NCBI GenBank assembly: GCA_028690665.1
Contig: JAQVAV010000015.1
Span: 26,896-90,895 of the forward strand
Length of the DNA stretch: 64,000 nucleotides
DNA from: Paludibacter sp.
Lineage (GTDB): Bacteria; Bacteroidota; Bacteroidia; Bacteroidales; Paludibacteraceae
Direction: 5' to 3'
Each line of letters starts with the position of its first letter. The stretch's first letter is position 1. Below the pieces are notes generated by a model, which had not been told where the DNA came from, made no database searches, and saw nothing but the letters and a program-made list of their open reading frames with translations. This document shows, in pieces, positions 34,413 to 39,852 of the stretch. A program made the translations under genes and the position numbers.

Positions 34413-35753
34413 TTGGAACCTGACATTTTCAACTCTCTTTTCTCCGGAATAACAGTTCACCCTTTCAGTTTGTCTGCTGCTATTTCATTAATTGTTAGCG
34501 GTCTGCTACTTGCACTTTCGGCAACCATATCTGCTTCTGAAGTTTCATTTTTTTCACTTACTCCACAGGATTTGAATGAGCTGGAAGAAAGTGACAAAAA
34601 ACAGGACCGGAAGATATTAAATGCACTTGAAAATCCGCAAAGACTATTGGCAACTATACTGATAGGAAACAACTTTGTGAATGTCACCATCATTATACTT
34701 CTTACTTATTTCACCAATTCTATTCTGAATTTTGATAACGCTCCAATCGTCGGATTTATTTTTCAGACGATTATCATTACGTTTTTGCTCTTATTGTTTG
34801 GCGAAATAATGCCCAAAATATACGCAACTCAATTTGCACGGCGCACATCGGCCAAGACAATAGGCTTCCTGACCGCGCTTGAAAAAGCTTTTTCTCCGAT
34901 TGTAACCTTATTGGTAAAATCAAGTTCCGTGGTAAATACCCGTTTAGCCCGACACACACATAATAATCTATCGAAAGAAGATCTGAGTCAGGCGCTCGAA
35001 CTCACCTCCGACAGCAAAGATGAGGATAAAGAAATACTTGAGGGAATTATAAAATTCGGAAATATTCATGTAATTGACATAATGACATCGAGAGTTGATA
35101 TGGTCGACGTCAATATAAAAACTTCCTATAAACAACTGCTTGAAATCGTTATTCAGTCAGGCTATTCACGAATTCCTGTTTATTCGGCAAATCAGGATAA
35201 CATCAAAGGAGTTTTATACGGAAAAGATCTGCTCCCTCATTTAAACAAACCAGCTAATTTCCGTTGGCAAAGTCTGATACGCCCGGCTTACTTCGTTCCT
35301 GAAACAAAAAAAATAGACGATTTGCTGAATGAATTTCAGGAAAATAAAGTCCATTTGGCCATTGTTGTTGACGAATATGGCGGAACATCCGGACTTGTTA
35401 CTCTTGAAGACATTCTGGAAGAAATTGTCGGAGATATAAGTGATGAGTATGATGAAGAAGAACAACTTTACACAAAAATAGATAATCACACCTTTATATT
35501 CGAGGCCAAAATTCAATTGAACGACTTCTTTAAGATTGAAGAAATTGAAGAATCTGATTTTACAAAGGTTACAGAAGAAGTTGAAACGCTGGCCGGTCTG
35601 ATTCTCGAATTGAAAGGAGAAATTCCCGCTAAAAATGAACGAATCGGCTACGGGAAATACGTTTTCGAAATTATGTCGGTCGACAATCGTCGTATCAAAA
35701 AAGTAAAACTTTACATTAAAGACGATTACCCCAAAAGAGAGGAAGAAGAATAA
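34413..35753 (+). CDS. gldE: Gliding motility-associated protein GldE (CNNM/CorC-type)
   Basis: CNNM transmembrane domain, CBS pair, CorC_HlyC C-terminus; directly upstream of gldD. Confidence 0.88.
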   Translation: MEPDIFNSLFSGITVHPFSLSAAISLIVSGLLLALSATISASEVSFFSLTPQDLNELEESDKKQDRKILNALENPQRLLATILIGNNFVNVTIIILLTYFTNSILNFDNAPIVGFIFQTIIITFLLLLFGEIMPKIYATQFARRTSAKTIGFLTALEKAFSPIVTLLVKSSSVVNTRLARHTHNNLSKEDLSQALELTSDSKDEDKEILEGIIKFGNIHVIDIMTSRVDMVDVNIKTSYKQLLEIVIQSGYSRIPVYSANQDNIKGVLYGKDLLPHLNKPANFRWQSLIRPAYFVPETKKIDDLLNEFQENKVHLAIVVDEYGGTSGLVTLEDILEEIVGDISDEYDEEEQLYTKIDNHTFIFEAKIQLNDFFKIEEIEESDFTKVTEEVETLAGLILELKGEIPAKNERIGYGKYVFEIMSVDNRRIKKVKLYIKDDYPKREEEE

Positions 35754-35775
35754 AAACATCCTTTGCAATTTTGAC

Positions 35776-36348
35776 ATGCTAAAACGACTAACAATCATTA
35801 CATTTATATCCTTTACGCTGATTTCATGCGGGGGAAACTACAGTCCGAAACCTTATGGATACTTCAGAGTAGATATGCCTGCTCATAAATACCGCATAGC
35901 AGACACATTAAACCTTCCGTATAAATTCGAATTATCAGATTATGCGGAGATTGTATCGCGTGAAGAACCGGGAGAAAATTACTGGATTGACATCAATTAC
36001 CCGGGGCTCAATTGCAGTGTGTACTGTAGCTATAAGCATGTGAAAGGCAATCTCAGGGAATTATCAGAAGATGCTCATCGGTATGTGTACAAGCATGCGG
36101 TAAAAGCAGATGCTATCAATGAGAAATTGTTCGAAAATCCGAAAAAAAAAGTATACGGGATCCTCTATGATCTCAAGGGGAACACAGCATCGTCGCTGCA
36201 ATTTGTATTAACTGACAGCACACGACATTTTTTCCGTGGCGCCCTGTACTTCAATAATGTTCCTAACAAAGATTCAATTGCCCCAATGGCCAATTACATT
36301 CGTGAAGATATGATTCGTCTGATAGAAAGTTTCGAATGGAAAAAATGA
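35776..36348 (+). CDS. gldD: Gliding motility lipoprotein GldD
   Basis: Lipobox TLISCGG; YSPKPYGYFRVDMPAHKY; syntenic with gldE. Confidence 0.9.
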   Translation: MLKRLTIITFISFTLISCGGNYSPKPYGYFRVDMPAHKYRIADTLNLPYKFELSDYAEIVSREEPGENYWIDINYPGLNCSVYCSYKHVKGNLRELSEDAHRYVYKHAVKADAINEKLFENPKKKVYGILYDLKGNTASSLQFVLTDSTRHFFRGALYFNNVPNKDSIAPMANYIREDMIRLIESFEWKK

Positions 36349-38175: not shown

Positions 38176-38394
38176 ATCAAAGGACTTAACAATAAAAAAT
38201 AACATCAAAGAGGGATAGACATAATTTCCGAAAACAGATTGTCAAATAGGAATTTAGTTCAAATTGACATCATTGGGATCGTTACATGCAGCCAAGAAAA
38301 AACTATCATAAAAAATCAATTGAAATTTTTATGAAAATAAAAACCACATATAATCTAATTGGTCTTTTATTCTAACTTCCAAAATCATTTAAGA

Positions 38395-39852
38395 ATGAAA
38401 TCAGCTTTTATATTATTTCTATGTATATCATCTTGTTTGCCAATGGCTCATGCAGCCAGCTCTGACACCCTACCTGTAACAGACAGCGTAAAAAACAAGT
38501 TGACTCTGCAACAAAAAAAAGATCAGCCCCGCCTGATACTAAATTTAGAACTGATTGATTTTCCTTATCAAACAGATGCATCTAAAACCGTTGATAACGG
38601 GAATGTATCTTTGTCCAGTTTTTTAAAAGGTTATGCAAATCCAAGTATGCATCAATCACTTCAACTAACAACCAGCTTATATTCAGGAGTGCATTATTGT
38701 ATTGATAAATTGTTTAGAAAAGATGCATACGCCGATTGGAGTGGAGGTAAGCGTCTTTTACACACAATAACATTATTGGCAAGTGACTACATATTGATAA
38801 CGGCGCCCGGGTTTGATGGTTGGTTGCATGAAGAGTTCCATCGCTCTGTCCTGACTCGTTTCGGAGTTAATAGTTATGATGAAATGAATAAATTTCCTAT
38901 TGGTGTCGAAACGGTAAGTGTGAGTCATATTACAGATGAAGACCTCATAAGATTTAAGCAACAAAGTCCTTCTGATTTTATTCGTATGCATGTTGCCGGT
39001 ATCGAAGGAGAATATTTGCTTGCCGAAAAAATGCAAAAAAATAATTTTTTCTACAATCAGAATGCATCCCATGAGATTGCATTTATGCTGAACATATTAA
39101 ATGCAATTGCATACGTGAATATATCGGCAAACTCGCTCCGTGCCGATGAAATGACAGATCAAATGAACGCGAAAGAAACTACAATATCGTCGAGAGACTT
39201 TACGGGACTGGATTTTACGGGTTGGACGTATGACTTATTCAGACCGAATGAACCATATACTTCACGTGGAGTTCATCCCAGTGGTTTGGGGATAAACCGT
39301 TATATTAAAGTCAGTGATTTGACCAATACTGAACTCAATTATTTAAAGAAACAAGGCAATTTACAATGGCTAAATTTGTTATCACCAATGATTTATGGCA
39401 TTAAAGACATAAAACTAAATGAGAATGGGGTATATGCAAATTTTGCAATTCGAAATTATCTTACTTCATTCGGAAACGACATATCTGCCAATATTCTTCT
39501 CAGAAACAAAAGTTATAATTATGCTTTCACTTTACATAACTATAATAATTACAACCATTATTTTCCTGCCATAGAAATGGAATTAGTTGATTACATTCAA
39601 CCAATTAGTCAACAATTACTATATATTACCCCTCGAATACTTGCTGGTTTACAACCCTTTGAACAAAATTTTACTACCAGTAAATCATCTTTTCTGGGTT
39701 TACTGGAATGTAAATTAGAATACAAAACGCACTTAAACCTGAATCCTTATATTGAACTATCATCGAAAACAAATGGTTGGATTGCCGGGAATGAATTTCT
39801 GAACAGCAATCTAAGTATAAGAATAGGGGCAAGTATGAGAATTTATAAATAA
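38395..39852 (+). CDS. Hypothetical exported protein, predicted beta-barrel C-terminus, internal HEEFH motif
   Basis: Signal peptide MKSAFILFLCISSCLPMAHA; DGWLHEEFHRSVLTRFG; alternating beta-strand-like C-terminus. Confidence 0.7.
   Translation: MKSAFILFLCISSCLPMAHAASSDTLPVTDSVKNKLTLQQKKDQPRLILNLELIDFPYQTDASKTVDNGNVSLSSFLKGYANPSMHQSLQLTTSLYSGVHYCIDKLFRKDAYADWSGGKRLLHTITLLASDYILITAPGFDGWLHEEFHRSVLTRFGVNSYDEMNKFPIGVETVSVSHITDEDLIRFKQQSPSDFIRMHVAGIEGEYLLAEKMQKNNFFYNQNASHEIAFMLNILNAIAYVNISANSLRADEMTDQMNAKETTISSRDFTGLDFTGWTYDLFRPNEPYTSRGVHPSGLGINRYIKVSDLTNTELNYLKKQGNLQWLNLLSPMIYGIKDIKLNENGVYANFAIRNYLTSFGNDISANILLRNKSYNYAFTLHNYNNYNHYFPAIEMELVDYIQPISQQLLYITPRILAGLQPFEQNFTTSKSSFLGLLECKLEYKTHLNLNPYIELSSKTNGWIAGNEFLNSNLSIRIGASMRIYK

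Follow-up and report, generated by a model that had tools for sequence, protein, structure and literature searches.

A predicted outer-membrane barrel protein of Paludibacter with a conserved HExxH domain, possibly a metal-dependent hydrolase

The gene at 38395-39852 of the window (the whole 64,000-nucleotide stretch of Paludibacter sp. DNA analysed here) encodes an exported protein whose HExxH motif and later Glu are kept almost unchanged over two phyla; this points to a metal-dependent enzyme, anchored in the membrane, of a kind not yet described. Our preferred reading, at about even odds, is a hydrolase of gluzincin-like type that is anchored in the outer membrane, depends on a metal and most likely cleaves peptides, with H145, H149 and E204 as candidate ligands. 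We propose the following mechanism: the signal peptide would direct export, and a small barrel of about ten strands would insert the protein in the outer membrane, with the helical domain forming a large loop that joins strand 1 to strand 2. H145 and H149 on the HEEFH helix, together with E204 on the AGIE helix, would coordinate a single metal ion (zinc being the most likely), with E146 activating water for hydrolysis, most likely of peptides. The active site would sit on the outward side of the barrel, and the enzyme would act at the cell surface. What we infer in this proposal is that the protein binds a metal, is a hydrolase and a peptidase, and is exposed at the surface. The features concerned are these:

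38395..39852, + strand: complete gene for a 485 aa exported protein with HEEFH (open reading frame and translation; homologues nearly full-length)
38395..38454, + strand: signal peptide, residues 1-20 (MKSAFILFLCISSCLPMAHA); the protein's hydrophobic maximum, with Q conserved after the expected cleavage point
38530..38556, + strand: candidate barrel strand 1, residues 46-54 (RLILNLELI); family-average beta moment 0.41
38563..39390, + strand: mostly helical domain, residues 57-332, containing all candidate catalytic residues; alpha periodicity above shuffles, beta below
38827..38844, + strand: HEEFHR, residues 145-150, with candidate ligands H145 and H149, candidate general base E146 and conserved R150; H-E-H in 41/47 members, R150 in 45/47
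38935..38937, + strand: D181, near-invariant (45/47 members)
39004..39006, + strand: E204 of the AGIE stretch, a candidate for the third metal ligand (kept by 46/47 family members; E at the matching position of 4/6 sister proteins)
39391..39843, + strand: C-terminal beta region, residues 333-483, with about nine predicted amphipathic strands and a terminal BAM-type beta-signal (beta periodicity, loop/turn conservation, family C-termini)

The reading frame opens with ATG at 38395 and its stop codon ends at 39852, on a + strand whose opposite is densely interrupted by stops. The first-pass annotation had described an exported protein between exactly these coordinates, and the signal peptide is indeed present. 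An upstream TTG start at 38359 was dropped in favour of the ATG, because the ATG sets the signal peptide at the N-terminus. A lipoprotein reading of ISSC (residues 11-14) is not favoured, since the signal peptides of relatives end in a typical x-Q junction; Q stands at the mature start in 39 of 45 relatives.

The case for an enzyme is supported by conservation of the motif. HEEFH occupies residues 145-149 (38827-38841), and its conservation among homologues had been set beforehand as the test on which the idea could fail. An alignment of 47 members, drawn from the window's order, another branch of the phylum, Spirosoma plasmids and Treponema-group genomes, keeps HExxH in 41 of them, and it includes a branch of the HEEGHRS type that is only about 20-25% identical to the window protein. 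The motif thus passes this test and is more than a chance occurrence. Besides the motif, R150, S160, D181, R197 and G202 are near-invariant. The six members without HExxH represent two losses on the maximum-likelihood tree, one in four Treponema copies that group as a clade, the other in two proteins with an N-terminal carboxypeptidase-regulatory-like domain. In these exceptions the motif is gone as a unit, with the first His left in one only, while R197, E204 and mostly D181 are retained; HExxH therefore has a separable function. The earlier suggestion that acidic residues about 50 positions downstream could supply a third ligand stands in part: in HVAGIEGEYLLAEKM, which starts at residue 199, the sole near-invariant acidic residue is E204, a Glu at a suitable distance (55 residues past H149), whereas E206 varies.

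A second, distantly related family, reached via weak C-terminal matches (six proteins, L047, L084, L085 and L089-L091), extends this pattern. Profile comparison by hhalign gave E 5e-13 and probability 98 with three sister members, and E 4e-18 and probability 99 with all six against the full family. In the six-member alignment, the HE-H of HEExHR pairs with the HE-GH of HExxGHxxR, which has one residue extra, and AGIE aligns with GGxE. HExxGH is found at the aligned position in 6/6 sister proteins; the E204 column holds E in four and Gly in two. Because E204 is kept in motif-less members and replaced by G in two of the six sister proteins, it may serve the structure in its own right. HExxxH is an established metal-binding variant in TldD and DPP III (PMC5810440), and TMCP/KIAA0895L is a further HExxxH metallopeptidase (PMC10499314).

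The protein is probably embedded in the outer membrane, as judged from three features that are all present: a signal peptide, amphipathic strands and a C-terminal beta-signal. Family-averaged hydrophobic moments gave a mean beta moment of 0.31 for residues 336-485 vs 0.21 +/- 0.02 in shuffles, about 4 sd above; residues 60-330 have alpha-type periodicity, and an isolated beta-like stretch lies at residues 46-54. The C-termini of several relatives, such as SVKAGISVRF and SVKIGVSARF, are typical BAM beta-signals by the described rule (PMC13067283). Within the beta region, the turns at 342-345, 371-373, 401-406 and 446-449 are short and variable and were assigned to the periplasmic side, on the assumption that the last strand runs down toward the periplasm; the loops at 357-360, 384-390, 419-432 and 460-472, on the opposite side with the helical domain, are conserved and fixed in length. 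This asymmetry is significant (Mann-Whitney p = 1.6e-5), with strand borders placed manually on the very alignment used for scoring. From the alternating turns and the strand at 46-54 we arrive at ten strands, with the helical domain pointing outward beside the conserved loops; plausibly, then, this is a ten-strand barrel whose HExxH domain is the first outward loop. The C-terminal barrel-like strands of the first-pass annotation are borne out by beta periodicity and the BAM-type C-terminus, and the picture is refined in that strand 46-54 is probably included, so that the HExxH domain probably interrupts the barrel instead of just preceding it. AlphaFold models built from a three-sequence input have low confidence (pLDDT 32.2 for the full protein and 34.9 for the helical domain); they contain helices in the helical domain.

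Searches against known families agree with the earlier remark that no recognised family fits, as Pfam, NCBIfam, PHROG and PDB gave none. Pfam returned no match to the window protein even at E 10, with stray matches only among relatives; PHROGs gave only weak matches of unknown function; phmmer and a profile search of the PDB found no solved relative, and two PDB profile matches (phage fibre and RPA, E 0.026 and 0.3) were judged to be chance. The sole NCBIfam match, NF047736 LIC_10202 (E 0.014, 14.7 bits vs a curated cut-off of 50), is also a chance match: true members are ~340 aa long, lack an exported start and lie beside genes read as glycosyltransferases. The family is thus unrecognised by the curated libraries searched (Pfam, NCBIfam, PHROG), and in the open-access literature we found no description of HExxH combined with an outer-membrane barrel.

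How the conserved residues are to be read needs to be weighed. Most proteins with HExxH or HExxxH are peptidases, and this speaks against the suggestion that the protein is an outer-membrane metal enzyme of another kind, whose substrate would be a lipid, LPS, a glycan or a peptidoglycan stem at the barrel face. For such an enzyme, a hydrophobic segment at 121-139 just ahead of HEExH and a helix at 227-246 suggest closeness to the membrane, and the many conserved Arg and Asp residues (R150, D181, R197, R267, D273, R302) would suit an anionic substrate; indeed, HEExHR with its conserved Arg and Asp could serve a different chemistry. No neighbour gene at the 23 loci compared hints at lipid or glycan work, however, and we regard a non-peptidase substrate as rather unlikely, if the most credible of the alternatives. 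Slightly below it we place a purely structural reading, in which the HEExHR helix and AGIE form a core of salt bridges and packing without metal or catalysis, in a protein that works as an adhesin, a receptor or a channel. The persistence of E204, R197 and mostly D181 where HExxH is gone means that the domain survives loss of the motif, and several Gly, Pro and Phe columns are as conserved; yet two His and a Glu kept in exact HExxH spacing over 20-25% identity, and matched by HExxGH among the sister proteins, are the hallmark of a metal site, and each of the two losses strips the motif from a domain that otherwise remains. The same ligands might also serve a non-hydrolytic metal protein, such as an iron-dependent oxidative enzyme, a metal sensor or an uptake protein, given that some HExxH proteins are no peptidases and an HEXXH oxidative enzyme is known (PMC12636437). 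We think this very improbable, as no redox partner or cofactor motif was seen and an exported stand-alone protein better suits hydrolysis.

The hydrolase that we favour resembles several known systems without, by the tests run, belonging to any of them. It is like the gluzincins (MEROPS clan MA(E), thermolysin-like HExxH...E) in its HExxH, in the conserved Glu 55 residues on and in the helices predicted at both sites, but it has an attached barrel and an Arg right behind the motif, and the Pfam and PDB searches found no homology to any known peptidase, of this clan or another. The sister family resembles M49 DPP III, TldD/E and TMCP/KIAA0895L (HExxxH) in having HExxGH and, in most members, a Glu ~50 residues on. 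These proteins are unlike the window protein, which has HExxH, in that they are not outer-membrane proteins, and no homology to them was found; in TldD, moreover, the metal ligands are two His and a remote Cys (PMC5810440), unlike the candidate site here.

In architecture, the nearest comparison is with the omptins (OmpT, Pla; A26), to our knowledge the only integral outer-membrane barrel proteases, whose metal-free catalysis relies on Asp and His residues of the barrel. The window protein has no omptin Pfam match and differs from them in its proposed metal site, and it is alike in its predicted 10-strand barrel (OmpT has 10 strands; PMC7383365) and in the outward position proposed for its active centre. 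By the tests run it falls in neither family: its motif is like that of the gluzincins, its predicted layout like that of the omptins. If our proposal is true, an HExxH domain built into a barrel would be a surface-enzyme design distinct from the metal-free omptins, and it would offer a concrete function for 'hypothetical' proteins of Bacteroidota and spirochaetes.

The HEEFH gene is a stand-alone accessory gene with a patchy distribution. It is single-copy in its own genome; a single-protein search found members in 13/199 close relatives, and a profile search in 34/393 genomes of the order and in only 2/396 across the phylum. Members also occur in 7/199 genomes around a Treponema MAG and on two different Spirosoma plasmids (NZ_CP089544.1 18179-19609 and NZ_CP051678.1 7480-8910), where they are 51-53% identical, annotated as hypothetical and set in unrelated gene surroundings; the phages and viral contigs searched held no family member. 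No substantial neighbour gene recurs across the 23 loci. In the window, the gene lies between a GFA-like gene and pdxH. Six genomes of the same genus have pdxH, beside gcvP in four, and the stretches around it lack the other window genes, the HEEFH gene included, which is therefore accessory at this locus. On the maximum-likelihood tree, the Treponema sequences near L016 fall together in a single clade, which sits within the window, Spirosoma and G135 sequences; this fits inter-phylum transfer, but calls for caution, as the named Treponema record comes from a metagenome bin.

As a wider and more tentative idea, it is possible that these proteins make up a so far undescribed superfamily of metalloenzymes built on outer-membrane barrels, with an HExxH/HExxxH domain as first outer loop, a metal-dependent counterpart of the omptins that has spread horizontally between Bacteroidota and Treponema and that includes intact and motif-less tandem pairs in some Treponema.

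The gene is often in tandem in Treponema-group genomes. At L016:5935-8654, a motif-less copy (HNEFER) is directly followed by an intact one (HESFH); at L052, an intact copy adjoins a motif-less copy with frame breaks; and L053 has two consecutive motif-less copies. These arrangements (L054 belongs to the set too) resemble an enzyme/partner pair such as TldD/TldE; TldD pairs with the motif-less TldE, as intact and motif-less copies do at some Treponema loci (PMC5810440, PMC10499314).

Several relatives have an unusual layout. Two of ~790 aa, at L045:307-2655 (+) and L046:1489-3873 (-), carry an N-terminal PF13715/PF13620 domain and have lost HExxH, and one of 630 aa at L004:1489-3378 (-) is extended at its N-terminus by a part that matches DUF2846 weakly, below the cut-off. 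In the open frame at L013:158-2137, half of a family member (the N-terminal one) is joined to a transglycosylase domain (PF00912), probably an assembly chimera, no real fusion. At L005/L015 (G188:C913) a member is split over three frames, probably because the gene is decaying or the sequence is faulty. Elsewhere in the window, at 34413-36348, a CBS-domain protein that we take from its sequence to be GldE-like lies beside what is presumably a GldD-like lipoprotein; this pair, from which the window was read as Bacteroidota DNA, is suggestive of Bacteroidota gliding/type IX secretion genes.
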